From assembly GCA_027482185.1 (NCBI GenBank), contig JAIXWF010000013.1, forward strand, positions 186,001 through 250,000: 64,000 nucleotides of DNA, written 5' to 3'. Source of the DNA: Opitutaceae bacterium. Lineage in GTDB: Bacteria > Verrucomicrobiota > Verrucomicrobiia > Opitutales > Opitutaceae. Positions 1 to 64,000 of this stretch are shown here, in pieces (within the stretch, counting starts at the first letter, position 1; each line of letters starts with the position of its first letter). Made by a program: the position numbers and the translations under genes. The notes under the pieces were generated by a model. That model did no database searches and was not told where the DNA came from. It saw only the letters and a list, made by a program, of their open reading frames with translations.

Positions 1-773
1 ATGCCGAGGGCCAGCGTGCCCGCGCTGACCGTGGTTCCGCCGGTGTAGGTATTGGCGGCGGCCATGACCAAAGTGCCGGCGCCGGACTTGGTGAAACGGC
101 CGGAGCCGCCGACGACCTCCTGCAGCGTCACGGTGGCGGCGGCGTTGCTCACGCTCCAAGTGCCGCCGCCGGATCCGAGACTGACGACGCCGAAGCGGGA
201 GGAGGAGACCGTGGTCGTGCCGCCGGTGTAGTCGAGGGTGCCGTTGCTGAGCGTCAGGTTGCCGCTGACGCCCGGGAAATAACTCATGCTCGAGGCCCGG
301 ATCGTGCCGCCGTTGACGTTGACCGGGCCGCGGTGCCCGGAGCCCAAGCCGGAAAAGGTCAAGACGCCGGAGCCGGTCTTGGTGAGGGTGCCGCTGCCGT
401 AGAAGCGCAGGTTGACGGTCGCGTTGTAGGCGCCCGTCGCGATCGTGCCGCTGAAGTAAATCGAGGACAGCCCGTCTTGCGACGTCAGGGTGTAATTGTT
501 GGCGGCAAACGTAATGTTGCCGACCGAATAGTAGGACTCGGCGGAGGAGAATGAGACGCTTCCCCCGGTCCCTTCGAAGACGACAGCCGTCCGACTCGTC
601 CACGCGGTTCCGGTGTACGGACCGCCGGTGGCAGTGCCCCAGTTGGCGGTGGTCGAGTCCCAGGTCTTGGAACCGCTGGAATAAAGTTGTCCGTAGAGCG
701 GCCCGGTCGCGGCGAGCGATCCGAGCGCGAACGTCAGAAAGTGCCGAAGGAGGCCGAGGGAGAGGAAGTTGAT
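1..773 (-). CDS. Beta-strand-repeat (autotransporter-associated) surface protein, 5' part, truncated by window edge
   Basis: The frame is open from the window edge to about 773 and encodes an N-terminal hydrophobic stretch ending near ATGPLYGQ, then a WDSTTANWG motif, then glycine/threonine/serine-rich repeats such as SGAGTLVMAAANTYTGGTT. This is the pattern of the TIGR02601-type beta-strand repeat found in very large secreted proteins of Verrucomicrobiota. About 257 codons are visible; the C-terminus (possible PEP-CTERM or autotransporter barrel) lies outside. No ATG, GTG or TTG occurs in frame at the start of the signal peptide. An ATC at 773-771, a few bases after a GAAGGGGGG stretch, would give MNFLSLGLLRHFLTFALGS, a credible signal peptide. 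A CTG at residue 13 of that reading is the other option. The gene lies 31 bases downstream of the symporter on the same strand, so the two may be co-transcribed. Confidence 0.72.
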   Translation of the reverse strand, partial: MNFLSLGLLRHFLTFALGSLAATGPLYGQLYSSGSKTWDSTTANWGTATGGPYTGTAWTSRTAVVFEGTGGSVSFSSAESYYSVGNITFAANNYTLTSQDGLSSIYFSGTIATGAYNATVNLRFYGSGTLTKTGSGVLTFSGLGSGHRGPVNVNGGTIRASSMSYFPGVSGNLTLSNGTLDYTGGTTTVSSSRFGVVSLGSGGGTWSVSNAAATVTLQEVVGGSGRFTKSGAGTLVMAAANTYTGGTTVSAGTLALG

Positions 774-8100: not shown

Positions 8101-11100
8101 TCGAGGCCGACGGCGGCGTCGGAGTTGTTCGTGACGAGCAAGGTGTCGTTGACGCGGCTGCCGGCGGTGTTGATCACGTGGGAGCCGTTGTCGTTGACGA
8201 TGATCTGGGCCTGGCCGCTGGTGACGTCGAAATCGAGGCGGCTGCCGCCGCTGACGGTGTAGTTCCGGTTGGCGGAGTTCTCGAAGATGAGTTTTCCGAC
8301 GGTGGCGTTGGCGGCGACGTTGATGGTGGGGTCGACGGTGAGGGGCGCCTGGACGGTGGGGCTGACGGAGGTGACGGTGTCGCCGAGGATGGCGATGGTG
8401 TTGGCGGCGTTGGCGATGGTGACGCCGGAGGCGGTGCTGTTGTTCGCCCAATTGCCGGCGGCCCAGTTGCCGTTGCCGTTGACGTCCCAGTAGGTGCCGG
8501 CGATGAGCGGGACAATTTCGTAGAAGCCGGTGCCGAGATCGGGGCGGGAGACGGTGGTGGCGGCGCCCCAGTCGGTGAACGTGATGTTCGTGACGGTCGG
8601 CGCGCCGGCGTTGCTGTAGACAACGAGCTGTTCGGTACCGCCGCCGTCGAGGGAACCGGCCCAATTGTTGATCGACATCGTGCCGGTGACGGTGCCGAGG
8701 CCGCTGACGGAACCGGTGACGCCGTTGAAACGGAGGACGGAGCCGTCGTTGAGATAGTCGATCGCGGAGGCGGTGGTTTGCGAGAGCTGGCGCATCGTCT
8801 CGCTGAAGCTGCCGACATTGAGGGTGCCGCCGGAGAGCGTGAGGTTGGCGCTGTCGTTGATCTGGTTGGCGGCGCCGAGGGCGAGCGTGGCGCCGGTGTT
8901 GATCGTGAGGCCGGAGATGGAGCCGAAGACTTGGCCGCCGGAATTGGCAAGGGTGGTGGTGCCGGTGCCGCCGATGGTGACGGCGCCGGTGAGGCCGGAG
9001 GCGGCGGTGAGGGTGAGGTTGCCGGCGCCGACGGTGGTCAGGTTGCGGCTGCCGCCGGATTGGCCGATCGCGCCGGAAACGGTGAGGTTGCCGGCGGCGG
9101 CGCCGATGGTGGTGTCGGCGGCGAGGGTGACGGCGCCGGCGACGGTGTTGTCGCCGGAGAGATTGCGGAGGGCGCCGTTGCCGCTGACGCCGGTGCCGGC
9201 GAGGGTGAGGGCTTCGGCGGCCGGGAGGGTGATGCCGCCCTGGAGGCCGAGGGTGCCGCCGGAGTTCACGGTGGTGCCGGCGGCGGTGGTGCCGAGGGCG
9301 TTGCTGTTGGCGGCGACGAGCGTGGCGCCGGAATTGACGGTGGCGGCGCCGGAGAGGGCGTTGCTGCCGGAGAGAACGACGGTGCCGGTGCCGTTGGCGG
9401 TGATGGCGCCGCTGCCGGTGAGGGCGCCGGAGAAGACGACGGTGCCGCCGGCGGCGGACGTCAGGTTCGTGTCGCGGGCGAGGCCGATGTTGCCGGCGAA
9501 GGTGTTGGTGCCGGAGGTGTTGGTGCCGCCGAGGGCGGCGGTGCCGGAGGCGTTGAGATTGTTGACGCTGACGGCGCGGCCGACGGTGACGCCGCCCGTG
9601 GCGTTGCCGATGAGCAGGCCGAGGTTGTCGGCGGCGGCGGTGCCGCTGTCGCCGATCTGGACGGTGGAGCCGGAGTTGCCGAGGGCGCCGTTGGCGGCGA
9701 CGGGGGCGTTGCCGGTGACGGTGAGGGTGCCGTTGCGGACGGTGGTGTTGCCGGTGTAGGCATTGGCGGCGCCGGAGAGCGTGAGGTTGCCGGCGCCGGA
9801 TTTGATGACGGAGAAGTTGCCGGTGATGTTGCCGGTGCTGACGAGGGTGCCGGCGCTGACGCCGATGACGGTGTCGCTGTTGGCGGTGATGTTGCCGGAG
9901 AGGGTGTTGGTGCCGGCGATGCTTTGGATGGCGCCGAGGCCGCCGACGCCGGCGCCGTTGACGGTGATGTTTTCCGCGCTGGTGGCGCCCAGATTGCTGA
10001 AGGCAAGGGTGGCGCCGCTCGCGATCGTGGTCGGGTTGGCGGTGGAGCCGAGCGTGCCGCTGCCGGAGACGAGCAAGGTGCCGGCGTTGACGGCGGTCGT
10101 GCCGGTGTAGGAATTGGCAGCGGAGAGGACGAGGGTGCCGGTGTCGGTCGTGACGTTGCCGCCCTTGACGAGACCGAAGCCGCCGGAAATGGCGCCGGAG
10201 GCGGTGAGCGTGGTGCCGGCGGCGACGCCGACGGTGGTCTCGGCGGTGAGGGCGATGTTGCCGGAGAGGGTGTGGTCCGCGCCGGTGTTGCGGAGGGCGC
10301 CGAGGCCGCCGACGCCGCTGCCGGCGAGGGTGAGGCCTTCGTTGCTGGTGTAGGCGGCGCCGTCGAAAGCGAGGGTGGCGCCGTTGGCGACGGTGGTGCC
10401 GGCGGCGTTGGTGCCGAGGCCGGCGGCGTTCTGCACGACGACGGTGCCGGAATTGACGGCGGTAGCCCCGGTATAGGTGTTGGCGCCGGCGAGGGTGAGG
10501 ATGCCGTTGCCGGCTTTCGTGACGGTGCCGGAGCCGGTGGTGATGGCGCCGGAGATGGTGGTGTTGCCGGCGCCGTTGACGGCGAGGTTCTGGTTCGTGC
10601 CGGTGATGCCGCCGGTGGAAAGCGTCAGCGTATCGGCGACGCTGGTAATGGTGGTGGCGCCGGCGAGCGTGACGGCGCCGGTGAAGGTGTTGTTGCCGGA
10701 AACGTTGCGGAGGGCGCCGCCGGAGGAAACGCCGGTGCCGGAGAGGGAGAGGGCTTCGCCGGCGACGGTGATGCCGCCTTGGATCTCGAGGGCGCCGCCC
10801 GAATTGACGGTCGTGCCGCCGGCGGTGGAGCCGAGGGCGGAGGCCTTCTGGATATTCAGAGCGCCGCCGGAGTTGATGGTAACAGTGCCGTCGAAGGTGT
10901 TGGCGCCGGCGCCGGACAGGACCGTCGTGCCGGAGCCGGTTTTGACGAGGCTGAGGGTGGAGGCGGCGCCGTCGGTGATGTTGCCGGAGAACGTGGTCGC
11001 GGTGTTGAGGCCGCCGAAGGTGAGCGTGAGGGCGCCGGTGCCGGTGGCGTTGATATTGCCGGCGCCGGCGATGGAGCCGACGGTGTCGGAAAATTGGACG

Positions 11101-14100
11101 AGGTCGATGGCGGCGCCGGCGGCGACGGTGACCGCGGAAGAATCGGAGATCCGGTTGGTGCCGTTGTAGACGACGGTGCCGGCGTCGACATTGGTGGCGC
11201 CGGTATAGGTGTTGACGGCGCCGAGCGTAAGATTGCCGGTGCCGGTCTTGGTCAAGGAGCCGGTGCCGGCGATGACGTTGGCGATGGAGAGATCGGTGAC
11301 GGTCTCGAAGGTGCCGCCGGCGGCACCGAGGGTGAAGCCGCGGTTGTCGGCGGCGAAGGCAACGGCGGAGCCGGCGGAGCGCAGGGTGCCGCCGTTGAGC
11401 GTGATCTGGTCGGCGACGGCGGCGCCGGGAGCGTCGCCGAGCTGGTTGGCGTTGGAGATGGAGACGGTGCCGGCGTTGATGATCGTCTTGCCGGTGTAGG
11501 TGTTGTCGGCGCCGAGGGTGAGGACTCCGGTACCGTTCATCGTGAGGCTGCCGGTGCCGGTGGTGATGGTGCCCGAGATGGTGGTGTCGCCGGAGCCGCC
11601 GACGGTGACGTTGCGGTTGGTGCCGGTGATGGCGTTGGCGGCGTTGAGCGTGAGCGTGCCGGTCGAGTTCTGGTTGATGGTGAGGCCGTCGTTCAGCGTG
11701 AGGCCGGCGGAGATGGTCGCGGAGCCGGTGTTGCTGAGAGAGATCGTCGCATTGCCGGCGGAGACATCCATCGTGATCCGCTGCGTGGCGGACGGGGCGA
11801 TGGTGTAGCTGTTGTTGTCGTTGAAGACGAGGTAGCCGGCGGTGCGGTTGGCATCGAGGGTGACGGTGCGGTCGGCGGTGATGGCGCTGCCGAAGACGGT
11901 CGAGGTGCCGACGCCGCCGGGGTTGGTGACGCCGCCGTTCCAGTTGTTGCCGGTCCAGGTGCCGCCGGAGTCGACTCCCCACGTGTAGGCGGCGCCGGTG
12001 ATGGGAACGATTTCGAAGAGGCCGCCGACGTTGATGATCTGGGCGCCGGTGCCGTAGCCGGCGAAGGTGATGTTGCTGAGGAACGTGGAATTGAAGGCGG
12101 TAAGGGAATTGACGAGGAGCTGGCTGGCGCCGCCGCCGGTGGGGCTGCCGGCCCAGTTGTCGATCGTGAGGGCGCCGGCGGTGTAGGATCCGGTGCCGAG
12201 ACCGAGGATGCCGCCCATCGAATTGAAATTGATCGCGGAGGAGGCGAGCAGCGAGAGGCTGCCGAAGGTGTCGCTGTAGCCGTTGGTGGCGAAGGTGCCG
12301 CCGTTGAGGACGAGGTTCGAAGCGAAGACGTTGTCGGCCCCGAGGGCGACGGTGCCTTGGTTGATCTGGAGGTTGCCGGCGAAGGTGTTGGTGCCGGAGA
12401 AGGTCGTGGTGCCGGTGCCGGTCTTGAGAATGTTGCCGGTGCCGGTAGCGGCGCCGGAGTAGACGGTGTTGGCGTTGTTGGCGCCGAGGGTGAGGGAGCC
12501 GCCGCTGAGGGAAACGCCGCCGGCGCCGGCGAGGGAGCCGATGGTATCGGTGCGGCTGTTGACGTCGAAGGTGGCGCCGCCGGCGACGGTGACGGCGGTG
12601 GTGTCGGCGAGGACGTTGTTGGCGGTGAGGCGGAGGGTGCCGGCGTTGATGTTGGTGGCGCCGGTGTAGGTGTTGGCGCCGCCGAGGGCGAGGGTGCCGG
12701 TGCCGGTTTTCGTCAGGTTGCCGGAGCCGGAGGCGACGCCGTTGTAGGTGAGGGTCGTGCCGCTGTCGGTGCTGACGGTGCCGCCGCCGGTGCCGAGGGT
12801 AACGCCGCGGGTGTCTGCGAGCGTGAAGGTGGACGTGGTCTGCAGCGTGCCGCCGTCGAGGGTGAGGGTTCCCGAGGTGGCGCCGAGGCCCGAATCGGCG
12901 GCGATGGCGACGGTGCCGGCGTTGACGGTGGTGTTGCCGGCGTAGGTGTTGATGCCGGAGAGGGTGAGGGTGCCGCCGCCGGTTTTGACGAGATCGCTGC
13001 CGGAGGCGCCGCTGATCACGCCGGAGATGTTGAGGCTGCCGCCGTCGACGCCGACGGAATTGGCGCCGGCGGCGCCGAGGGCGACGGTGCCGGTCCAGAC
13101 ATTTGCGCCCGCGGTGTTGAGCAGGGCGCCGTTGCCGGCGGCGCCGGTGCCGCTGATCGTCAGGCTTTCGGCGGCGAAGGTCGTGCCGGAACCGGCGAGG
13201 GCGAGGGTGCCGCCGCTGTTGACCGTGGTGCCGGCGGCGGTGGACCCGAGGGCGGTCGCCTTGCTGATCTCGAGCGTGCCGCCGTTGACGGTGGTGGTGC
13301 CGGTGTAGGTGTTGGCGTCGGAGCCGGAAAGACGGGCGGTGCCGGAGTCGCTCTTGACGAGGTTGCCGGCGCCGGAAATCGCGCCGGAGAGGACGGTGGT
13401 GCCGGTGCCTTTGAGGCCGAGGGTGTTGCCGCCGGTGTCGATGGCCCCGCTGATGGTGAAGACGGGGGCGATGTTGTTGTTGATGTCGAGCGTCCGGTTC
13501 ATCTGGACGTCGAGCCCGAGCGTGTGGCTGGCGTTGCCGCCGGCGTCGTTGGTGAGGTTGATCGACGTGAGGCCGCCGGCGGTGACGGAGTCGAAGATGA
13601 GCTTGCGCGATTCGGAGGTCGTCAGCGAGTAGCCGTTGGTGCCGGAGAAGTAGAGGTTGGTGATGACCTTGTCGCTGCCGGCGACGTCGATGTTCTGGGC
13701 GGTGCTGACGTAGGTGCTGTTGAAGATGACGTTGGACTTGAGGGTGGGGTTGGTCTGGCCGACCCAATTGAGGGGATCGCTGGCGCCGGTGCCCCAGACG
13801 CTGTTGCCGCCGCCGCTGTCGCCGGGGCCGTTGCGGTTGTCCCAGATGAAATTGCCGCTGCCGGCGGTGGCTTGGATCTGGAGCAGGCCGCCGACCTCGG
13901 TGATCAGCGTGCCCGAGCCGGTACCGGCGCTGAAGCCCATCTTGAGCTGCTCGGGGCGGACGAAGGAGCTGAGGTCGACGTTGAGCAGATTGTACCAGAG
14001 ACCGTCCTCGCCGAACTGCATGCTGACGGAGAGCTGGCTGGTTTCGTCGAGGGTGATGGAGACGTTGCGGTACTGGGTGCTTTGGTTGGGCCGGCCGGTG

Positions 14101-14825
14101 GCGGTCGGGAACGCCATGACGTAGGGCAGGCCGGGGTCGGTTGTGCCGGTGGTATTGGCGGCGCCGCGGCCGGCGGTTCCGGCGAGGTAATCGTAGCCGG
14201 TCTGGTCCTGGCCGGGACCGCGGACGGCAACGCTGTTGTACTGCAGGGTATTGGTGCCGCCGGAGCGGCCCTCGGCGGCGACGGAGAAGTTGCCGTAGGC
14301 GTCGAGCGCGACGGAGACGAAGCCGCCGTTCAGGCCATCGACCCCGGTCTTCTGGGCGTAGCCGAGGGAGCCACCGTCGGCGCCGACCTGGAAACTCTTG
14401 CTCGCGTCGTAGAGGAAAAAGGTGAGGCCGTCGGCGCCGGTGCCGGCGAAGTTGTTGCCGCCCCAGAGATTGACGCCGAACTGGATGTTGACGCTGTTGC
14501 CGGCGGAGGGGACGGGGGTGTCGAAGTAGACGGCGTTGTGGGTGTTCGTCGTGTTGTTCGTCAACCGGAGCCAGCCGGAGCCGGAAGGATCGATAATGCC
14601 GCCGGTTTCAGGGTCGCCGGTCCGCGTGGCGGCGCCGGAAGTCAGAATCGCATTGGGGGTGGAATTTCCGGCCGGATTCAGCACCCAGCCGGCGGCCGTC
14701 GAGTTCTTGAAGTCTTCCGAATACGTGAATTGGCCGCGCGCGGAACCAAGCGCGGCGAGCGCCAAGAGGGCGAGGGCGGCGAAGCGCAGAGACCTGCGAA
14801 CGGGGTGCTGGACGAGAATGGACAT
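5172..14825 (-). CDS. Giant PEP-CTERM protein with lectin-like domain and about 19 autotransporter-type beta-strand repeats
   Basis: About 3217 residues. Order of parts: signal peptide (MSILVQHPVRRSLRFAAL.., cleavage near SARGQ); a legume-lectin-like beta-sandwich over roughly the first 330 residues (DGLTFFLYD, GGSLGY); then about 19 copies of a repeat of the form LTKTGTGTLALGGANTYTG followed by NAGTL, the TIGR02601 beta-strand repeat. The C-terminus is PAPEPSTYGAIMVAGALGL followed by GYRRWRA, a PEP-CTERM signal: PEP motif, membrane segment, basic tail. PEP-CTERM proteins are cut by an exosortase and placed on the outer surface or in the polysaccharide matrix; no exosortase gene was recognised here. 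A TTG at 14867 also opens the frame, but it lies within 8 bases of an operator-like palindrome, so the ATG at 14825 is preferred. The stop is TAA. Base composition is low-complexity, so alternative frames stay open by chance. Confidence 0.88.
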   Translation of the reverse strand: MSILVQHPVRRSLRFAALALLALAALGSARGQFTYSEDFKNSTAAGWVLNPAGNSTPNAILTSGAATRTGDPETGGIIDPSGSGWLRLTNNTTNTHNAVYFDTPVPSAGNSVNIQFGVNLWGGNNFAGTGADGLTFFLYDASKSFQVGADGGSLGYAQKTGVDGLNGGFVSVALDAYGNFSVAAEGRSGGTNTLQYNSVAVRGPGQDQTGYDYLAGTAGRGAANTTGTTDPGLPYVMAFPTATGRPNQSTQYRNVSITLDETSQLSVSMQFGEDGLWYNLLNVDLSSFVRPEQLKMGFSAGTGSGTLITEVGGLLQIQATAGSGNFIWDNRNGPGDSGGGNSVWGTGASDPLNWVGQTNPTLKSNVIFNSTYVSTAQNIDVAGSDKVITNLYFSGTNGYSLTTSESRKLIFDSVTAGGLTSINLTNDAGGNASHTLGLDVQMNRTLDINNNIAPVFTISGAIDTGGNTLGLKGTGTTVLSGAISGAGNLVKSDSGTARLSGSDANTYTGTTTVNGGTLEISKATALGSTAAGTTVNSGGTLALAGSGTTFAAESLTISGTGAAGNGALLNTAGANVWTGTVALGAAGANSVGVDGGSLNISGVISGASGSDLVKTGGGTLTLSGINTYAGNTTVNAGTVAIAADSGLGATSGTLTLDGGTLQTTSTFTLADTRGVTLGTGGGTVSTDSGTTLTYNGVASGSGNLTKTGTGTLALGGANTYTGATNINAGTLRLTANNVLADTTAVTVAGGATFDVNSRTDTIGSLAGAGGVSLSGGSLTLGANNANTVYSGAATGTGNILKTGTGTTTFSGTNTFAGNLQINQGTVALGADNVFASNLVLNGGTFATNGYSDTFGSLSLLASSAINFNSMGGILGLGTGSYTAGALTIDNWAGSPTGGGASQLLVNSLTAFNSTFLSNITFAGYGTGAQIINVGGLFEIVPITGAAYTWGVDSGGTWTGNNWNGGVTNPGGVGTSTVFGSAITADRTVTLDANRTAGYLVFNDNNSYTIAPSATQRITMDVSAGNATISLSNTGSATISAGLTLNDGLTINQNSTGTLTLNAANAITGTNRNVTVGGSGDTTISGTITTGTGSLTMNGTGVLTLGADNTYTGKTIINAGTVSISNANQLGDAPGAAVADQITLNGGTLRSAGSAVAFAADNRGFTLGAAGGTFETVTDLSIANVIAGTGSLTKTGTGNLTLGAVNTYTGATNVDAGTVVYNGTNRISDSSAVTVAAGAAIDLVQFSDTVGSIAGAGNINATGTGALTLTFGGLNTATTFSGNITDGAASTLSLVKTGSGTTVLSGAGANTFDGTVTINSGGALNIQKASALGSTAGGTTVNSGGALEIQGGITVAGEALSLSGTGVSSGGALRNVSGNNTFTGAVTLAGATTITSVADTLTLSTGGITGTNQNLAVNGAGNTTISGAITTGSGTVTKAGNGILTLAGANTYTGATAVNSGTVVVQNAAGLGTNAAGTTVANGATLAFDGAAYTSNEGLTLAGSGVGGLGALRNTGADHTLSGNIALTAETTVGVAAGTTLTASGAISGGFGLVKGGNVTTDTGTLVLSAANSYTGTTAVNAGTLLVSGSGTLGSTANPTTIASGATLAFSNLGATSAENITVNGAGVGGLGAIQSIAGTNTLSGNITANSDTVIGVSAGTLVSTGNITGNFSVIKSGAGNLTLSGAANAYTGNTTVRNGTLTVTGNAPVAANGALGNSGSTVQIGDSGTAAADNLGLLIGNATGGVTVGRAVSVNNLNASGTAALGGTNTSGTNTFAGNIGLARDTNLTSAAGGTVVFSGALTGSGAITANGTGTVVLSGSNALSGAATVNSGATLVAANSNALGTTAAGTTVNSGGTLGLQGGITLPAAEALTLAGTGVSGNGALRNLSGDNTVAGAVTLAADTTIGAAAGNLTVSGAIGQSGGSRNLTTVGAGNLTLTAASGLTGAVTIGGTGTTTLANSGGQVFGSISGLTINTGATLALGAANQINDSANLTLSGGTLNVGSFSETMRQLSQTTASAIDYLNDGSVLRFNGVTGSVSGLGTVTGTMSINNWAGSLDGGGTEQLVVYSNAGAPTVTNITFTDWGAATTVSRPDLGTGFYEIVPLIAGTYWDVNGNGNWAAGNWANNSTASGVTIANAANTIAILGDTVTSVSPTVQAPLTVDPTINVAANATVGKLIFENSANRNYTVSGGSRLDFDVTSGQAQIIVNDNGSHVINTAGSRVNDTLLVTNNSDAAVGLDINSGLQFRTNNSDLIVNGTGTTRIDGAITINGTTGNDLLKTGSGTLVLSNTGNAYTGTTTVRNGTLVLEGNAASGSNGTLGNATSAVIVNDASTTGTMNTALLIGATGVSVNRSITVGAQGATTTLGGNIASGTGSFTGAISLAKNVDLTAAGTSAITFSGALTDGAASANVTKTGAGTVILSNTGNAYDGATAINAGTLRLGAANVLPNATAVTIATGATLDLNGFGETIGSLAGSGNVTGTSGTITLNTGGNNASTVFSGIVSDGAGTLALTKSGTGTMTLTGANTYDGATAVTAGTLVAANNTALGSATGSTSVTAGATLAFQGGITVTGETLTLNTNNSAPATAALSNLSGNNISTGTVTLTAATANDAVRVDVAGGSQLTLSGAIGQGANAAVLAKSGTGTLVLSGANTYTGLTNVTAGTLVVANNAALGTTAGATAVQVGATLGVQNNVTVASGETYTLYGTVAPPSAPSIKNIADTNTLAGNILLSGTIGTGVAIDSNTGSLTLNGAISQAGSPNYLVKTGSADLTLGGSAGNTFTGGFTVNDGRVIAAKTAGDATGAGNVNIGDGIGAAASAILQLNASNQINDTSTVTVQTDGRLDLQSFNDTVGAVTMAGGNIQGSGTLTLGNNLTFNGVGSATATVSANLNLGSTGTRVIQVGNNGVNGDTDLTVSGAISGTAGLNKTDLGTLELSGTSANTFSGAFQVSDGTVNLNKTAGVNATGTGNISVGDGVGAANSAVLTLLGSNQINNGSRVTVYGDGKFNLNGLTETIGSFAGTGTIDTGAGGTLIAGGDNTSTTFGGTLAGTGIIEKVGSGDLTFNTNMNYAGELRLSGGEITLAGINLTVGTLRITGNTILDFGNSAASILTATHVIVEPGATLTINNWVHMQDYFYATGSFTGVSSAAFDTRGTSPQNQIIFTGNLPDHTVWQSWDKQITPAPEPSTYGAIMVAGALGLLGYRRWRAARPAAQK

Positions 14826-14875
14826 TCCGGCTGACCAACGTATCGGCCGGAACGACAAAAACTTCAATCCGTTAA

Positions 14876-39738: not shown

Positions 39739-40782
39739 TCAGGCGCCGGCGAGGGCGATCCGTTCGCGGTACAGCGCGAGATATTGGCCGGCGCAAACCT
39801 GCACGTCGTAGTGCGTTTCCGCCCGGCGGCGGCATGCCGCCCGGTCCAAGGCGCCGAGCCCGGCGACGGCGGCGACGCCTTCCTCCACCGTGGCGAAGAA
39901 CAGGCCGGTTTTCCCCGGTTCGACGATCTCCGGCGCGGCGCCGCGCGCGCAGGTCAAAATCGGCGTGCCGCAGGCGAGCGCCTCGGCGTAAACGATGCCG
40001 AAAGGTTCGTCCCATTGGATCGGCAGCAGCAACGCCGCGGCCTGGCCGAGCAGCGCGTTTTTTCGGACGTCGTTCACTTCGCCGATCCACTCGATGCCGG
40101 GCTGCCCGAGATGGGGCGCGACCTCGCGGTCGAAGTACGCGGCGTCCGGTCCGGCGACGGGCCGGTTGCCGGCGAGGATGAGGCGGCGGCCGCTCGCCCG
40201 CGCGATCGCGATCGCGAGGTGCGGGCCTTTGATCGCGTCCATCCGGCTGAGGAAAACCAGCGGGGCGTCCGGCGCGACCCGCGGGGAAAACGTGTAGGTG
40301 CGGACGTCGACGAAATTCGGCACGGCCGCCCAGTCGCCGCCGCACGGGGCGCCGAGGTCGCGGATGTAGCCGCTGCAGCCCGTGAATTGCAGCGTGCCGC
40401 GGCGCGCCAACCGCAGCGCCAGACCGACCGTCGAGGGGCCGACATGCCGCTGGTACGACATGAGCTTGGGCAGGCGGCGCGGCTGCAGCGGGGTCAGGTA
40501 GGCGAGCCGGGCGAAACTGTGGAGCACGTCGGGCCGGAACCGCGCGGCCGCCCGGTGCAGCGCGAGGGCGTTGCGCAGGGTGTCGAGCCGGCCGGCGACG
40601 TTTTCCCCGGGCCACGGGAAAAACGCGTCCACCGGCGCCGGCGAGCCGGCTTTGCCGACCAAGCCGACCGTGTGGCCGCGGGCGCGAAACTCCGCGATCA
40701 GGCTGGCGACGATGCGCTCGATGCCGCCGTACCCGGCGGGCGGCACGGGCAAAATCGGGTCGGCGGCGAGCAGGATGCGCAT
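39739..40782 (-). CDS. Glycosyltransferase family 4
   Basis: A 347-residue GT-B transferase. ILLAADPILPVPPAGYGGIE is the acceptor-domain start with the G-G-I-E loop; PLVFLSRMDAIKGPHLAIAI begins the donor domain; DEPFGIVYAEALACGTPILT has the E-x7-E motif, followed by GAAPEIVEPGKTGLF. This AviGT4-like pattern is common in EPS loci. The ATG at 40782 is chosen because the first strand begins there; a GTG at 40803 would add seven residues and create a GTGA overlap with the upstream gene, as is usual in this operon. Confidence 0.87.
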   Translation of the reverse strand: MRILLAADPILPVPPAGYGGIERIVASLIAEFRARGHTVGLVGKAGSPAPVDAFFPWPGENVAGRLDTLRNALALHRAAARFRPDVLHSFARLAYLTPLQPRRLPKLMSYQRHVGPSTVGLALRLARRGTLQFTGCSGYIRDLGAPCGGDWAAVPNFVDVRTYTFSPRVAPDAPLVFLSRMDAIKGPHLAIAIARASGRRLILAGNRPVAGPDAAYFDREVAPHLGQPGIEWIGEVNDVRKNALLGQAAALLLPIQWDEPFGIVYAEALACGTPILTCARGAAPEIVEPGKTGLFFATVEEGVAAVAGLGALDRAACRRRAETHYDVQVCAGQYLALYRERIALAGA

Positions 40783-40799
40783 GGCGTCCGGCGAAGCTG

Positions 40800-42458
40800 T
40801 CACGGCTGCCGGGCGCTTGGCGAGGGCGCCATGGTCGCACTCCAGAGCACCAGACCCTCCGGCAACGGTGCCGCATGCCAGGCCCCGGCGCCGCGCAGCC
40901 CCGCGGTCCAGGCCGGCGGAGCCGCGGGATCGCGTCCCAGGGTGCGGACGTGCACCGCGCGGCCCGTCGCCCAAGCCGCGACCGATCCGGGCGGGCGGTA
41001 GATGTTGGCCATATCCTCGGCCACGGAGCGGCCGGCGTTGCGGTCGAGGACCCGGCCCCGCAGCCCGAGGGCGAGTTCCGGGTTGTCCACCACCCAGACG
41101 GTATCCGGCCCGGCATGACGGTCGAGTTCCCGGAGCACCGCGGCCTGGTCCTTGGCTCCGAGGGCGGGCAACGCGATGCCGTTGGGCCCGGCCGCGACGC
41201 CGGCCCCGCGGCAGGTCTTCAGGGCGGCCAGCGCGACGCCGGCCGCGGCAGGCAGCACGAGGTAGGCGAGCAGGCCCGCCGCCAAAGCCAGGCGGACGAG
41301 CTTGCCGGCCGCCGGCCGGATCGCCGCAGCGACCTGAACCACGGCCGGGAGCGCGGCCAGCCCGGGGACCACGAAGAAGCGGGTGTCGCGGGCGACGTTC
41401 GACGTCAGCCAAAGTCCCGCCATCAGGAGCGTGAAGCAGGCGAGGGCGCCCGCGGCGACCAGCGCCGGCAAGGGCAGCGGCGGTTGCCCGCGGGCGAGCC
41501 GCGGCAGGCAAAGCAGCAGCACCGCCCCGGGAATTCCGACGAGCGCCACCGCGGCGGAACCGAAATGGCCGGGTCCGAAAATCCCCGGGTAGACCAGCAG
41601 CGCGAACCAGGCACCGCCGGCGTCCGCCAGGCCCAGCGCCGGATTCCCGAATCCGAAGAGCAGCAGATCGACCCCCGAGGCGCCGCCGTCCGGTCCGCCG
41701 GTCGGATCCGCGGCCCCGAGCGAGGCGTGGTAGAGCCGCAGCGCGGCGGGCACAACCGCGAGGCCGAGCGCGCACGGCACCGCGGCGCGCAGCCCGGGAC
41801 CGAATCCCGCCAGCCGGCGCCGCCAGACCGCGAAGGCCGCGCCCGCGACGACGGCGAGCACCACCACGAACAGGGAGTATTTGAAAAGGTAGGACGCTCC
41901 CGCGACGGCGCCCGCCGCCAAGGCGAGCCAGCCGACGGACTTGGCGTGAATCCGCGCCAGCAAGGCGACCGCGCCGAGATAGAGCCAAGGCGCGAGGCCG
42001 AAAACGAAGGCCTCGGCGGAAAAGCGGAACAGCGGGCCGGCCGCATAGGGGAGCCAAGGCAGCGCCGCGGCGGCCGGCGCCAGCCAGGGGTCGCCCCATC
42101 CGCATCGCCGCCACCACCATAGCCAGCCAAGGCAGCCGGCGGCGCTGCATGCCAACGCGAGGCATCGCAACGCCGCCCCGTAACCTAGGCCCAATTCGCC
42201 GAGGCCGGCGACAAGCACGGGAAGGGCCGGCGGCCACCAGCCGATCGGTTCGGGCAAATCGCGGGCGAGGTCGGTCGGATCGACGCGGAGGCGGATGTTC
42301 CACGCCGGCGATTCGCCCCGTGAATACTGGTCCAGGGCCTGGAGTTGCACCACCGGGTCGTAGTAGTGCAGGCCCTGCGGGATCCAGCCGGCGAGACCGG
42401 CCAAAATCAACCAGGAGCATAGGCCGATCAGATGGGCCCGTGGCATGGAGCGGGTCAT
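40800..42458 (-). CDS. Polytopic membrane protein, GT-C-like
   Basis: A 552-residue protein with about 11 to 13 membrane segments and a soluble C-terminal part (about 440-552, with TVWVVDNPELALGLRGRVLD). The first loop, GLHYYDPVVQLQALDQYSRG then WNIRLRVDPTDLARDLPEP, has acidic residues in the place expected for a GT-C catalytic loop. No named family fits clearly. GT-C enzymes use polyprenyl-phosphate sugars on the periplasmic side, which would mean late decoration of the polymer. It overlaps the upstream gene by ATGA. Confidence 0.55.
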   Translation of the reverse strand: MTRSMPRAHLIGLCSWLILAGLAGWIPQGLHYYDPVVQLQALDQYSRGESPAWNIRLRVDPTDLARDLPEPIGWWPPALPVLVAGLGELGLGYGAALRCLALACSAAGCLGWLWWWRRCGWGDPWLAPAAAALPWLPYAAGPLFRFSAEAFVFGLAPWLYLGAVALLARIHAKSVGWLALAAGAVAGASYLFKYSLFVVVLAVVAGAAFAVWRRRLAGFGPGLRAAVPCALGLAVVPAALRLYHASLGAADPTGGPDGGASGVDLLLFGFGNPALGLADAGGAWFALLVYPGIFGPGHFGSAAVALVGIPGAVLLLCLPRLARGQPPLPLPALVAAGALACFTLLMAGLWLTSNVARDTRFFVVPGLAALPAVVQVAAAIRPAAGKLVRLALAAGLLAYLVLPAAAGVALAALKTCRGAGVAAGPNGIALPALGAKDQAAVLRELDRHAGPDTVWVVDNPELALGLRGRVLDRNAGRSVAEDMANIYRPPGSVAAWATGRAVHVRTLGRDPAAPPAWTAGLRGAGAWHAAPLPEGLVLWSATMAPSPSARQP

Positions 42459-58402: not shown

Positions 58403-59638
58403 TCAGACGCGGGTGAGGCGGCTTTGCATCGAGTTCAGCACGATCCCGACGCCGGAGGTGGCGGGGAATTCCTCGCCGGCATTCTCGCCGGTGAGGTCGA
58501 AGCGGGCGGCTTCGAATTGCTGGAGCTGGCGGTCGTTTTCCGTCAGTCCCACGAGCAGCGAATAGGAGCCGCCTTCGAGGTTCACGCGGTCCTGGGTGAA
58601 GACGGCTTCGTAGTCGCCGGCGGCGAGATCCTGCGGGGGCAACCACGCCGTCTGCACGGCGATGCCGTCGGCGGACTTGATGCCCACGGCGGCAACGAAG
58701 CGGCGCTGCGGCTGGCGCACCCGGATCGCGAGGCGGATCCGCCACGGCACGCCGACGGGAATGACGGCGGGTTGGCGGCCGTCGAGGGTCTCGAGGACGA
58801 CCGCGGTCACGTAGGCGCGTTCGGCGAGATCGGGGCCGGGTTTCGGCACGGTGACGGGGGCGCCCGCGGTCAGGCCGCGCTGGTACTGTTCGAGGACTTG
58901 GCCGCAACCGCCGGCCGCCTCGAGCCGTCCGCCCGACAGCAGCAGGGCGGAGCGGCAGAGTTGCCGGATCGACGGCAGGTTGTGGCTGACGAAGAGGACG
59001 GTGCGGCCCTCGCTGCGGGCGACGTCCTGCATCTTGCCCAGGCACTTTTTTTGGAAGGCGGCGTCGCCGACGGCGAGGACCTCGTCGACGATGAGGATCT
59101 CGGGTTCGAGGTGGGCCGCGACGGCGAAGGCGAGGCGCACGTACATACCGCTCGAGTAGTGCTTCACCCGCATGTCGAGGAAGCGTTCCACTTCCGCGAA
59201 GGCGACGATCTCGTCGAACTTCCGCCGGATCTCCGCGCGGGACATGCCGAGGATGGCGCCGTTGAGGTAGATGTTGTCCCGGCCGGTGAGCTCGGGATGG
59301 AAGCCGGTGCCGACCTCGAGCAGGCTCGCGACGCGGCCGCGGATCCGGATTTCGCCGGCGGTCGGATCGGTGATGCGCGAAAGGATTTTCAGCAGCGTCG
59401 ATTTGCCGGCGCCGTTGCGGCCGATGATGCCCACGACATCGCCGCGCGCGATTTCGAAGGACAAATCGCGGAGGGCCCAGAACTCCTCTTCCGCGCCGTG
59501 GGATTCCCGGCCGGCCAAGCGCGCGCCGAGGGCGCGGAGCTTCGCGGTGACGGCGTCGCGGAGCGTGTCCGAACGCGACCGCTGGCTCAGCCAGTAGCGT
59601 TTGCCCAGCCCGGTGACGGAGATCGCGGCGTCGCTCAT
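58403..59638 (-). CDS. wzt: Polysaccharide ABC exporter ATP-binding protein with C-terminal glycan-binding domain (Wzt type)
   Basis: A 411-residue ATPase. Walker A is GRNGAGKST at 73-81, the signature is HYSSGMYVRLAFA, Walker B LEPEILIVDEVLAVGD. Residues about 265-411 form an extra beta-rich domain (PVTVPKPGPDLAERAY through AGEEFPATSGVGIVLN), as in Wzt of E. coli O8/O9a, where it binds the capped end of the glycan and couples termination to export. With Wzm it moves lipid-linked polysaccharide across the inner membrane. Its ATG lies 1 base after the stop of wzm. Confidence 0.93.
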   Translation of the reverse strand: MSDAAISVTGLGKRYWLSQRSRSDTLRDAVTAKLRALGARLAGRESHGAEEEFWALRDLSFEIARGDVVGIIGRNGAGKSTLLKILSRITDPTAGEIRIRGRVASLLEVGTGFHPELTGRDNIYLNGAILGMSRAEIRRKFDEIVAFAEVERFLDMRVKHYSSGMYVRLAFAVAAHLEPEILIVDEVLAVGDAAFQKKCLGKMQDVARSEGRTVLFVSHNLPSIRQLCRSALLLSGGRLEAAGGCGQVLEQYQRGLTAGAPVTVPKPGPDLAERAYVTAVVLETLDGRQPAVIPVGVPWRIRLAIRVRQPQRRFVAAVGIKSADGIAVQTAWLPPQDLAAGDYEAVFTQDRVNLEGGSYSLLVGLTENDRQLQQFEAARFDLTGENAGEEFPATSGVGIVLNSMQSRLTRV

Positions 59639-59639
59639 G

Positions 59640-60491
59640 TCAGATGATGTCGGCGAACGAACGTTCGGTCCGGCGGAAATACCAGATGCCGGTCGCGAGC
59701 AGCAGGACGCTGACGACGGTGCCGTTGACCAGGCTGGGGAGGTGCAGGGGATGGGCGGAACCGAGCAGGCACCAGCGGAAGCCGTCGATCACGCCGACCA
59801 TGGGATTGAGCGCGAAGATTTCCCGCCAATTGGGGACGTTGCCGGAGCTGAATCCGACGGGAGTGAGGAAGAGCCCGACCTGCAGGAGGAACGGCACGAT
59901 GAAGCGGAAATCGCGGTACCGCACCGTCAGGGCGGAAAGCCAGAGGCCGCCGCCGAAGGCCGCGAGCAGCGCGAGCAGGACGAAGAGCGGAAGGAACACG
60001 ATCTCGGGCCCGGGCAACACGCCGTACCACGCGAACATGGCGGCGGTGAGCACGGCGACGATGGCGAAGTCGACGAGCGCGACCGCGACCGACGACAGGG
60101 GCACCAGCAGGCGGGGGAAATAGACTTTGGAGATCAGGTGGGTGTTGCTGACCAAACTGCTGCCCGTGCCGGAGAGGGTGTTGGCAAACAACTGCCACGG
60201 GAGCAGGCCGGCCATGACGAGCAGCGGATAGGGCACGTCGCCGGACGGCATCTGGGCGAGTTTGCCGTAGATGAACGTGAAGACCGCGAGCGTCACCGCG
60301 GGCTGAAAAACCGCCCAGCCGGCGCCGAGCACGGATTGCTTGTAGCGCACGGCGACGTCGCGCCACGCCAGAAATCCCATGAGCTCGCGGTAGCGCCACA
60401 AGTCGCGCCAGTAGTTCGCCTCCGCGCGGCCGGCGGCGATGTACAGGATGCCGGGCTCGGGGGCGGAGACGTTTTCGGAGGCGGCGGGCAT
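59640..60491 (-). CDS. wzm: Polysaccharide ABC exporter permease (Wzm type)
   Basis: A 283-residue ABC-2 membrane protein with six hydrophobic segments. It opens with LMGFLAWRDVAVRYKQSVLG, the amphipathic coupling region of the family, and shows GAGWAVFQPAVTLAVFTFIY, LLPWQLFANTLSGTGSSLV and PVGFSSGNVPNWREIFALNP as further hallmarks. It forms the channel for Wzt. The start at 60491 leaves 20 bases to the fusion gene upstream. wzm-wzt order is standard. Confidence 0.92.
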   Translation of the reverse strand: MPAASENVSAPEPGILYIAAGRAEANYWRDLWRYRELMGFLAWRDVAVRYKQSVLGAGWAVFQPAVTLAVFTFIYGKLAQMPSGDVPYPLLVMAGLLPWQLFANTLSGTGSSLVSNTHLISKVYFPRLLVPLSSVAVALVDFAIVAVLTAAMFAWYGVLPGPEIVFLPLFVLLALLAAFGGGLWLSALTVRYRDFRFIVPFLLQVGLFLTPVGFSSGNVPNWREIFALNPMVGVIDGFRWCLLGSAHPLHLPSLVNGTVVSVLLLATGIWYFRRTERSFADII

Positions 60492-60511: not shown

Positions 60512-63500
60512 TCAGACGCAGTCGGGAGCGCGCGACAAGGCCTCCCCGAGGCGCTCCTGAAAGCGGGCGAAAGAGAAATGGTCCGCGCGGGCGAGGATGG
60601 CGTCTTCGTCCCACTCCGCGCGCAGGGCCGCGACCGCCGCGGCCGCGATGCCGGGGATATCGCCGTAGCGCACGAGGACGCCCGAGGCCGCGTCGATGAC
60701 TTCGGGGACTCCGCCGGCGTCCGCTCCGAGGCAAGGCCGGCTGCTGGCCATCGCTTCGAGGAACACGAGCCCGAAGCCTTCCTTCTTGCTCGGCAGCGCG
60801 AAGAGGCGGCAGCGGCGGATTTCCTCGCGGAGCGCGGTGTCGTCGACAAAGCCGAGAAACGTGACCGCGGGTCCGCAGCCGGCCGCGGCCGCCAGACCGC
60901 GGAGGCGTTCGGTGTCGTCGCCGCGACCGATGATCCGGAGGGTGGCTCCGGGCACCTCGCGGCGGATCGCGGGCAAGGCGGCGATGAGGTCCTCGATGCC
61001 CTTGTAGCGGTCGGCAAACGTGAGCCGGGTCACGGTCAGAATGACCGGCGCGCATGCCGCAAGCGGCAGGCCGTGGCCGATCGGAAAACCGGGATCGAGC
61101 GCGTTGGGCAGAACGACGGCGCGGCCGGCGGGCAAGGGGCAGTGCCGCAGGAGTTCGCGGCGGGTGTAGTCGCTGACGCAGAGGACGCGCTCCGCGCCGC
61201 GGAGTGCGAGACGTTCCGCGGCCGTGAACGGCCGCCACACCTCGATCCCATGGGCGACGAGGTGGTAGCGGAGCCGGGGATTCAGGCGACGCGCGAGCCA
61301 GGCCACGGGCAACTGCGCGACATGGCCGCAGACGATGTCGGTGCAGCCGCGGCTGAGCCGGAGGGCCGCGCGGACGAAGTCGGCCTTGCGCCGGCCGCAG
61401 CCGGCCGCCTGCCGCGTGCCCGGGCTGCCGTGGCGCGCGAGATCGGCGGGATCGATCGCGGCGTCGTTCAGGGAAACGAGCCGGACTTCCGCCTGGGTCG
61501 CCGCCAGCGCCCGGAGATAACTCTGCAGGATGCGCGGGATGCCGCCTTCGGAGGAAAAAATCTCGGGCGCGAGCAGCAGGACCTTGCCGCTGCCGCGGGG
61601 CGGAGCGGAAGCAAGGACCACCGGCGCTGGGCGCGGCGGCGGCGGGGTCGGTTGGCGGTTGGCGAACTGGACCAGCATGGCGATGCTCCAGACCCGGGAC
61701 CATTTGCGGGTGTCGTTCCCGGCCATGAAATCGCGCCAGAGCTGCTGGACGGCGGCGCGGCGGAAAAGTCCGCTGCGGTCCACGCTGTCGTCGGCGAACG
61801 TCGCGTCGAGGAACGGCCGCAATTCGCGTTTCATCCACACCGCCAGCGGCAGGGTGAAGCCCCGCTTGCGGCGGTGCGCGAGGCCGGGCGGAACGAGATC
61901 GCGGACCGCGGCGAGCAGCGAGGCCTTCGGGTCGCCGCGGCCGGCCTTCCATGCGGCCGGCTGTTGCCAAAGCCATTCGAGGAGCACGCGGTCGACGAAC
62001 GGCACGCGCAGTTCGAGCGAGTGGCGCATGCTCATGACGTCGCTGTCGCGCAGCAGCACATCGGTCATGTACGTGCGGAGCTCCCAGGCACTGGAAATTT
62101 CGAAAAGCGCGTCGGGCGGCACTTCCGCGGCGAGCGCGGCGAGGGCGGGATGGAAGGGGCCGGACGAACCCGCGGCGGCCGCCGGCACGAGCAGCGAACC
62201 GGCGGCGGCGGAAGGGAAGACGCGGCGCTGGAGGGCGCCGATCTGGTGGGCGGTGCGCGCGGAGCCGAGCAGCTCGGCGAGTTTGCGGCGGCGGGTGTCG
62301 CCGTGCTCGAGCCAGCCGACGGCGCGGCTTCGCAGACCCTCGGGCAGGCTGCGCCAGAGCGGGAGCAGACGCGCGAGCCGCGGAAGGTCGCGGAACGACG
62401 GATAGCCGCCGAACAATTCGTCGCCGCCGAGACCCGAGAGCGCGACCGTCACGCCGCCGGCCCGGGCCGCGGCGCTGGCGTACCAGGTATTGATGCCGTC
62501 GCCGGTGGGCTGGTCGAACGCCGCGCAGATCGGGCCGATGTCGGCGGCGAGCCGCGCGCCGGTGAGTTCGAATTCCGTGTGCAGGGTGCCGAAATGGCGG
62601 GCGGCTTCGGCGGCCTCCGGCGCCTCGGAGTAGCCGGCGTCGGGAAACGTGACCGCAAACGTGCGCAGTTGCGTCGCTCCGGTGTGCCGCATCAGGCCGA
62701 CGATGGACGACGAATCGAGCCCGCCGGACAGGAAGGCACCGACGGGGACGTCGGCCACGCGATGGGCCCGGATCGTGTCCTCGAGTTTGACGCGCAGCGC
62801 GGCGGTGAACTCCGGTTCGCTGCAGCACACGGCGGCGGGATCGGCCGACGGGAAACGCCACGCCCGCCGCAGACTCAGGGTGCCGTCCTTGAACGTTGCG
62901 CACTCGCCCGGCTGGAGACTGAGGATGCCGCGGTAGATCGAGCGCGGCGCCGGGACGGCGAGCCAGCCGAGGTAGTCGGCCGCCGCTCCCGGATCGATGG
63001 CCGTCGGGCAAACGCCGGATGCGGCCAAGGCATTGAGCTCGGAAGCGAAGAGCAGGGTCCCGCCGGAAGAACGGTAATACAGCGGCTTGATGCCGAACGG
63101 ATCGCGCGCGAGGAAGAGCGAGCGTTCGCTTTGGTCCCAGACCGCGAAGGCGAACATGCCGCGGAAGCGGGAGACGCAGGCTTCGCCCCAGTGCATGTAC
63201 GCGGTCAGCAGAACCTCGGTGTCGCACTGGGTCCGGAACGTCCAACCGAACGACTGCAGCTCGGCCCGGAGGACCGCGAAGTTGTATAGGGCGCCGTTGA
63301 AGACGACGACGTAACGTCCGTCCGCCGAACGCATCGGTTGCCGGCCGTTTGCAGGATCGAAAATCGCCAGTCGTCGCATGCCCAAGGCCCCGCCGGGGAT
63401 AGGCTGGATCCCTTCGTCGTCGGGTCCCCGATGCACCATTGCATCGCACATCCGTTGCACTGCGACCCGGACTACGTCCGGATGGGCCTGCGGATCAAGC

Positions 63501-63520
63501 CACCCGGCGATGCCGCACAT
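60512..63520 (-). CDS. Fusion of class II glutamine amidotransferase/asparagine synthetase with a GT4 glycosyltransferase
   Basis: A 1002-residue protein, first gene of the operon. Residues 1-190 are a class II glutaminase with Cys2 as nucleophile (MCGIAGWLDP) and HRGPDDEG; about 200-620 the synthetase domain with the ATP pyrophosphatase loop SGGLDSSS at 265-272 and GLGGDELFGGYPSF. From about 645 a GT4 domain begins (KVLLLAPEIFSSEGGIPRIL), with CAPVILTVTRLTFADRYKGI and KEGFGLVFLEAMASSRPCLG (E-x7-E near 913-921). AsnB-type amidotransferases in EPS loci are thought to amidate uronic-acid sugars; fusion to a transferase suggests that amidation and transfer are linked. E. coli AsnB is 554 residues and has no such extension. 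Start ATG 63520 gives the required N-terminal Cys. Confidence 0.88.
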   Translation of the reverse strand: MCGIAGWLDPQAHPDVVRVAVQRMCDAMVHRGPDDEGIQPIPGGALGMRRLAIFDPANGRQPMRSADGRYVVVFNGALYNFAVLRAELQSFGWTFRTQCDTEVLLTAYMHWGEACVSRFRGMFAFAVWDQSERSLFLARDPFGIKPLYYRSSGGTLLFASELNALAASGVCPTAIDPGAAADYLGWLAVPAPRSIYRGILSLQPGECATFKDGTLSLRRAWRFPSADPAAVCCSEPEFTAALRVKLEDTIRAHRVADVPVGAFLSGGLDSSSIVGLMRHTGATQLRTFAVTFPDAGYSEAPEAAEAARHFGTLHTEFELTGARLAADIGPICAAFDQPTGDGINTWYASAAARAGGVTVALSGLGGDELFGGYPSFRDLPRLARLLPLWRSLPEGLRSRAVGWLEHGDTRRRKLAELLGSARTAHQIGALQRRVFPSAAAGSLLVPAAAAGSSGPFHPALAALAAEVPPDALFEISSAWELRTYMTDVLLRDSDVMSMRHSLELRVPFVDRVLLEWLWQQPAAWKAGRGDPKASLLAAVRDLVPPGLAHRRKRGFTLPLAVWMKRELRPFLDATFADDSVDRSGLFRRAAVQQLWRDFMAGNDTRKWSRVWSIAMLVQFANRQPTPPPPRPAPVVLASAPPRGSGKVLLLAPEIFSSEGGIPRILQSYLRALAATQAEVRLVSLNDAAIDPADLARHGSPGTRQAAGCGRRKADFVRAALRLSRGCTDIVCGHVAQLPVAWLARRLNPRLRYHLVAHGIEVWRPFTAAERLALRGAERVLCVSDYTRRELLRHCPLPAGRAVVLPNALDPGFPIGHGLPLAACAPVILTVTRLTFADRYKGIEDLIAALPAIRREVPGATLRIIGRGDDTERLRGLAAAAGCGPAVTFLGFVDDTALREEIRRCRLFALPSKKEGFGLVFLEAMASSRPCLGADAGGVPEVIDAASGVLVRYGDIPGIAAAAVAALRAEWDEDAILARADHFSFARFQERLGEALSRAPDCV

Positions 63521-63694: not shown

Positions 63695-64000
63695 CTACCA
63701 GCCGATGGATCGGGCGATCTCGGCCGACTTTTCCGGACCGAAGAGGCGCTTCACCAGGGCCAGTCCGAATTCCAACGCCGTGCCCGCGCCGCGCGACGTC
63801 ACGAGGTGGCCGTCCACGACGACGCGTTCGGTGGCGAGAATGTGGGGCAACTCGCCGGCGACGGACGGGTGGGCCGTGTAACGCCGGCCCGCCAGCAGGC
63901 CGGCATCAAGCAGCACGGTCGGGGCCGCACAGATGGCGGCCAACCAACGGCCGGCCGCGGCTTGGCGTTGCAAGGCGGCGCGGAGGGCCGGATCGGCGCG
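63695..64000 (-). CDS. DJ-1/PfpI family protein, 3' part, truncated by window edge
   Basis: About 101 C-terminal codons are visible. WLAAICAAPTVLLDAGLLAG carries the nucleophile-elbow Cys of the family (A-I-C-A-A-P), followed by RYTAHPSVAGELP, VVVDGHLVTSRGAGTALEF and a C-terminal helix (ALVKRLFGPEKSAEIARSI). This is the YajL/DJ-1 branch, with roles in protection from oxidative or carbonyl damage. It lies upstream of the polysaccharide operon on the same strand, 174 bases away, and is not clearly linked to it. Confidence 0.85.
   Translation of the reverse strand, partial: RADPALRAALQRQAAAGRWLAAICAAPTVLLDAGLLAGRRYTAHPSVAGELPHILATERVVVDGHLVTSRGAGTALEFGLALVKRLFGPEKSAEIARSIGW

Follow-up and report, generated by a model that had tools for sequence, protein, structure and literature searches.

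The window analyzed here, a stretch of 64,000 nucleotides from an Opitutaceae bacterium, contains an open frame that appears to join an asparagine synthetase-type amidotransferase (AsnB) to a GT4 glycosyltransferase, which raises the questions of whether this is one gene or two and what such a joined protein would do. A sequence-only reading had proposed either a bifunctional enzyme that amidates a sugar acid and transfers the product, or a scaffold working with the export proteins encoded next to it. We found the gene to be a single ATG-to-stop frame of 1002 codons on the minus strand (60512 to 63520, stop included), a strand that the earlier reading had not given. Its amidotransferase part (residues 1 to 622; 61655 to 63520, minus strand) comprises a Cys2 glutaminase domain, matched by the glutamine amidotransferase families PF13522/PF13537 at residues 33 to 166, and an Asn_synthase domain (PF00733, residues 242 to 616, 268.5 bits). 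It has the hallmarks of a class II (Ntn) AsnB-type enzyme, i.e., a Cys directly after the initiator Met, the GATase domain, an SGGxDS PP-loop (SGGLDSS), a GDE motif (within GLGGDELFGG), and a catalytic Lys. A Pro- and Ala-rich linker of 22 residues (623 to 644; 61589 to 61654, minus strand) leads to the GT4 part (residues 645 to 1002; 60515 to 61588, minus strand), which was complete as the sequence-only reading had stated, with PF13439 (659 to 810), a PF00534/PF13692-type domain (PF13692, 825 to 966), and an EX7E motif at E914/E922.

In the window assembly, the DNA between the two domains has no in-frame stop. In one draft genome of the fused clade (G050), a stop codon does interrupt the linker in frame, as might be expected if the frame were an assembly artefact in which a lost stop or a frameshift had merged what are really two genes. 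However, the same single frame occurs, with differing linkers, in 26 genomes of one Opitutaceae-like family, the window included, so it does not reflect a missing stop, and we give the artefact practically no credence. The fusion is genuine and belongs to the family, and the 1002-residue frame of the sequence-only reading stands. Among the first 12 fused loci, the linkers range from 22 to 128 residues, are rich in Pro (21%), Ala (16%), and Ser (13%), and have no conserved sequence discernible by eye. They also lack the codon-position GC pattern of the gene, with GC at the three positions of 0.72/0.71/0.70 versus 0.72/0.54/0.86 for the whole window gene. Four of the 12 have no ATG, GTG, or TTG in the linker or within five codons of it, leaving no separate start for the glycosyltransferase, and a Shine-Dalgarno-like site precedes such a codon in only one of the 12. 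The window linker contains one GTG, without a Shine-Dalgarno-like site.

The fusion was then traced in other genomes. Some match to the fusion protein was obtained in 86 of the 95 genomes searched, and direct reading of the frames in the best regions gave 12 loci (window included) with both domains in one open frame; fusion was also found in 14 of 20 further family loci, making up the total of 26. The nearest homologue, 82% identical (G006), has a frame open across its junction, and one of the first 12 (G055) has a shortened GT4 that is complete in a genome of the same genus (G427). Across the family, 132 of 252 genomes matched the fusion protein at E values up to 1e-90, the junction having been read in part of these. 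Relatives do not always carry two genes, the pattern named beforehand as counting against a fusion: of the 56 loci placed in the tree, 26 are fused, window included. Two-gene pairs do exist alongside them, and in 16 of the 24 split loci examined a candidate start codon for the GT4 shares a four-base overlap with the stop of AsnB. Coupled arrangements of this sort are common, suggesting that production of the two proteins may already be coupled in split relatives. Two loci (G201 and G552) proved to be split on direct frame reading, although the search had reported open frames of 1119 and 1272 residues.

To place these loci in a phylogeny, we took 46 AsnB rows, of which 36 entered a first concatenated tree, and added 20 for a total of 56. 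Left out of the 36-locus tree were those with no glycosyltransferase in hand (L048, L050, L053, L065, L118, L129, and L130) and long or distant ones (L062, L119, and L131); partial or broken AsnB, lone glycosyltransferases, and distant AsnB had been excluded beforehand (e.g., L056-L061, L063, L064, L066-L070, L098, L120-L128, and L132). All 12 fused rows of the 36-locus tree grouped in a 14-member clade (support 100/100), and a clade of fused rows alone was rejected (AU p = 2.85e-05) because of the two unfused members inside it. In the 56-locus quick tree, 25 of the 26 fused rows fell in a clade of 29 (SH-aLRT 98) together with four unfused rows, one with overlapping genes (G023) and three with a single in-frame stop each (G050, G522, and G530). 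Fused rows surround G023 and G050 in well-supported positions, indicating that the fusion was lost there, whereas G522 and G530 sit at the unresolved base of the clade and represent perhaps a third loss, or lineages that were never fused. The 26th fused row (G432) falls in the sister group, and the tree requires a minimum of five changes. By this placement of fused and unfused rows, the fusion is of old origin and has been retained in most lineages but lost in some. The linker stops of G050, G530, and G522 (loci L034, L150, and L151) are TAG, TGA, and TAG, respectively. The GT4 remains in frame beyond them, and the stretch examined contains no Met; gene fission, error, and readthrough are all possible.

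Another lineage of AsnB-GT4 fusions, with about 35% identity, is represented by a single 1115-residue frame (G017, locus L062) and by a locus cut by a contig end, whose GT4 match is under Pfam's cutoff (G015, locus L065). Beyond the family, eight loci for which the search reported long frames (L120-L127), among the matches listed from 337 evenly drawn genomes of the phylum, had no glycosyltransferase of this family in the AsnB frame, which continued for at most 18 residues after AsnB. None of the 349 matching plasmid records had one place covering 80% of the query; in three Bradyrhizobium plasmids, an asnB and a GT4 gene lay under one match at 37% identity. The titles and abstract openings of the literature matching our search named no AsnB-GT4 fusion of this kind.

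The gene neighborhood points to a glycan that is assembled and exported. Directly downstream of the fusion lie a Wzm-like ABC-2 glycan export permease (59640 to 60491, minus strand; the ATG at 60491 was read from the frame, and 59640 to 60473 was used in searches) and a Wzt-like ABC ATPase with a Wzt_C domain (58403 to 59638, minus strand), matching PF01061 and PF00005 with Wzt_C, as in an ABC transporter-dependent glycan locus. These are followed in the window by FkbM methyltransferases, GT11, GT2, and GT4 enzymes, an acyltransferase, an O-antigen ligase/polymerase-type protein, and a bacterial sugar transferase. Upstream is a gene that runs off the window (63695 to 64000, minus strand), which we take from its sequence to be DJ-1/PfpI-like. 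In 39 neighborhood loci, picked by hand with short contigs excluded, a homologue of this gene was found upstream of the pair in 33, Wzm after it in 32, and Wzt in 30, giving a common gene order of DJ-1/AsnB/GT4/Wzm/Wzt. AsnB and GT4, fused or split, are thus a module. Wzm and Wzt follow fused and split pairs alike, so this order is independent of the fusion; the proposed scaffold with the export proteins is thereby supported at most indirectly. One locus lacking both (L048) and two lacking Wzt (L035 and L049) are at contig ends, whereas six with about 20 kb in hand, one of them fused, have neither Wzm nor Wzt (L043, L053, L108, L115, L116, and L118). The C-terminal part of the window-type Wzt was recognized in 5 of the 39 loci, versus 30 for the ATPase part, which makes AsnB-GT4 look like the constant part of these loci and export specificity the variable part.

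Several other frames were observed. Beyond the window end, in locus L071, a frame presumed from its sequence to be DXS-like is located some 4.5 kb upstream of the fusion. Counting the window, 17 of the 39 loci have a homologue upstream; the glycan locus thus seems to occupy a fixed chromosomal place. In the window, an 893-residue frame (39739 to 42420, minus strand) has a GT4 domain at residues 564 to 852 only and no Pfam match at E values up to 1e-5 in its first 560 residues, and is possibly another fused transferase. A 3231-residue frame occupies 5172 to 14867 (minus strand), and a partial Gly/Ser/Thr-rich frame at 1 to 603 (minus strand) gives us the impression of autotransporter repeats.

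The amidotransferase half had been called a full AsnB, which applies to its motifs; two canonical Glu positions are, however, replaced almost family-wide. Cys2, Arg50, Asp100, Asp367, Glu368, and Lys552 are invariant in all 56 loci, as are the S, G, G, D, and S of SGGxDS in 41 loci. Compared with E. coli AsnB (1CT9), the window protein has SGLGGDE in place of SGEGSDE and NGA in place of NGE, the latter replacement in the glutamine pocket being present in 55 of the 56 loci. This Glu is probably missing from other glutamine amidotransferases as well. The position of Glu364 of human asparagine synthetase (ASNS), which we placed by the alignment to 1CT9 and the E-x-x-D-E spacing rather than by the human protein, is Leu in 55 loci and Ile in one, so none has the residue expected of a functional asparagine synthetase; according to passages of PMC6748925, the human variants E364A and E364Q have no activity. 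The family is not alone in having a hydrophobic residue here, since three AsnB proteins of greater distance have V, L, and V. The second fusion lineage has Asp at this position and an intact NGE. By sequence, the closest structure to the AsnB half is the hydroxyamidotransferase 7ylz, followed by 1CT9.

These residues bear on whether the protein is simply the cell's asparagine synthetase, fused by chance to a neighboring GT4. It is the only full-length PF00733 protein in the host genome, AsnA was found in none of the 57 genomes searched, AsnRS is present in the host, and the score against the asparagine synthase model TIGR01536 (421 bits) is above the cutoff of 267.1. However, the Leu or Ile at the Glu364 position in all 56 loci, the host GatB, which offers a tRNA-dependent route, and the glycan locus around the window copy, with Wzm following in 32 of 39 loci, all speak against it. 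Moreover, two genomes of the same genus (G007 and G008, 95 and 93% complete) have AsnRS but gave matches to neither PF00733 nor PF03590; asparagine there thus does not generally come from AsnB, and may instead come from uptake or the GatCAB route. On the residue and the same-genus genomes, we rejected asparagine synthesis as the main role; it is an unlikely role of the fusion, and a chance-fused synthetase seems very improbable. Scarcely better are the odds of the AsnB half being a dead scaffold that anchors GT4 beside Wzm/Wzt: the loss of two canonical Glu residues and the position of Wzm/Wzt in most loci would suit this, but the six residues invariant in 56 of 56 loci would not, nor would the split pairs that are also followed by Wzm/Wzt.

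The EX7E motif is conserved in the GT4 half. A structure model built from eight sequences had a mean pLDDT of 61.8 and a pTM of 0.41; its GT4 half was confident (blocks mostly 80 to 96), linker residues 625 to 643 were below 50, and the AsnB half was weak, so we drew no domain interface from it. Its Foldseek matches were GT-B enzymes, among them GlgM, PimB', BshA, and HepE, with identities of about 20%.

As for the substrate, AsnB-type proteins of glycan loci suggest a uronic acid. In passages of PMC7468200, the P. gingivalis homologue PGN_1234 is needed for uronamides, by deletion, as is WbqG of E. coli O121 in work cited there; WbpS of P. aeruginosa is proposed to make uronamides too, and WbpS and WbqG are assigned to the TIGR03108 group. 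Parts of other reports describe WbpS-like genes adjoining group 1 glycosyltransferases in Rubrivivax (PMC3684757) and a Bordetella locus that has a putative asparagine synthase and makes a glycan with two uronamides (PMC12407052). In the H. pullorum wbpS mutant, the glycan is truncated to a disaccharide, and passages of that report consider a sugar left unamidated, onto which the following transferase presumably cannot build, the mutant residue being given as an amide in one passage and as an acid in another (PMC6025236). This truncation would provide a reason to tether the amidotransferase to a transferase. Uronate supply proved uninformative as a test. No sugar-nucleotide dehydrogenase was recognized among the 30 window open reading frames scanned (27551 to 59045), and the host genome has two uronate-forming dehydrogenases, elsewhere than the locus; with one of them as the query, homologues were found in just two fetched loci, clearly and close to the AsnB-GT4 pair in L108, and weakly and on the other strand in L118. 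Such dehydrogenases are nearly universal, occurring in 238 of 252 family genomes (235 over the cutoff), so their presence says nothing on uronate supply. Among genomes matching the fusion protein, none was found in five, all of them drafts (G016, G466, G472, G525, and G451), and only weak matches in two more (G457 and G582).

With a real fusion, apparently intact active sites in both halves, and a locus that makes and exports a glycan, the protein is most naturally read as a bifunctional amidotransferase/glycosyltransferase. That much of the original proposal holds, while the sugar-acid acceptor and the transfer of the amidated product, as opposed to its extension, are still presumed. We put the probability at about 0.6 that a WbpS-like amidotransferase makes a sugar carboxamide, probably a uronamide, of the ABC-exported glycan and is tethered to the GT4 that uses it; its substrate, the activities of both domains, the step order, and the importance of tethering are what we infer. 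The N-terminal domain would hydrolyze glutamine, channel the ammonia, and adenylate a carboxyl group to give the carboxamide, the carboxyl most likely belonging to a hexuronic acid found in the surface glycan, on a nucleotide sugar or a lipid-linked chain. The tethered GT4 would then transfer the uronamide or add the next sugar onto it, so that amidation and chain growth might take place within one protein ahead of export by Wzm/Wzt. Points against this explanation are the lack of a linked dehydrogenase in the scanned frames of the window and the few found in fetched loci, the genomes that match the fusion protein but gave no dehydrogenase or weak matches to one, the six of 39 loci without Wzm/Wzt, the TIGR01536 score, NGA for NGE, and the roughly 20% identity to the nearest solved GT4s (BshA, PimB, and GlgM types).

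An alternative, less probable and still to be taken seriously, is that the chemistry may be the same and the fusion neutral, fixing only a 1:1 ratio of enzymes that act just as they do when separate and cotranslated. The four-base overlap in split relatives, the variable linkers, the low-confidence prediction of that of the window, and the loss of the fusion at least twice within the main clade (perhaps three times) would all fit, but neutrality less readily accounts for a frame kept in 25 of 29 clade rows across linkers of 22 to 128 residues, or for the existence of the second fusion. It is conceivable, though we consider it doubtful, that the fusion is a checkpoint in which AsnB would amidate a lipid-linked chain and the tethered GT4 extend amidated chains only. 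The pair would then build the inner, unvarying portion of an ABC-exported glycan common to the family, and divergent Wzt C-terminal domains would recognize its outer, variable portion. If so, the loss of Glu from both the glutamine pocket and the acceptor pocket would be the sign of a separate class of acceptor.

Whichever holds, the fusion joins a known kind of gene pair and marks a conserved module in the surface-glycan loci of a little-studied bacterial family; its role in an amidated, ABC-exported glycan is presumptive and well motivated. The passages on WbpS-type enzymes consulted leave unsettled whether the nucleotide sugar or the growing chain is amidated, and by which transferase the amide is recognized. 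A fusion occurring in nature indicates a partner transferase for a WbpS-type amidotransferase, and the split, fused, and apparently rebroken relatives make the question of step and partner testable.

The protein resembles the GT4 enzymes BshA, PimB', GlgM, and HepE in the EX7E motif and the GT-B fold predicted by the model, and differs in its N-terminal amidotransferase and an identity of about 20%, which leaves its sugar ambiguous. With asparagine synthetase B (1CT9 and human ASNS), it shares both domains, the Cys nucleophile, the PP-loop, and the catalytic Lys; unlike these, it has Leu for Glu in the aspartate pocket and NGA for NGE, almost family-wide, and a C-terminal GT4. Its best NCBIfam score was with the XrtA/PEP-CTERM amidotransferase (TIGR03108; 428.8 bits), which is, however, far under the cutoff of 816.9, and no exosortase was recognized among the window frames scanned (27551 to 59045). 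Compared with WbpS, WbqG, and PGN_1234, it is fused to a GT4, lies beside Wzm/Wzt, falls under the TIGR03108 cutoff, and would act on a uronic acid only by presumption. It nevertheless has in common with them, as far as they are described in the passages cited above, the AsnB architecture, a place in a glycan locus beside glycosyltransferases, and a best NCBIfam score in the TIGR03108 group.
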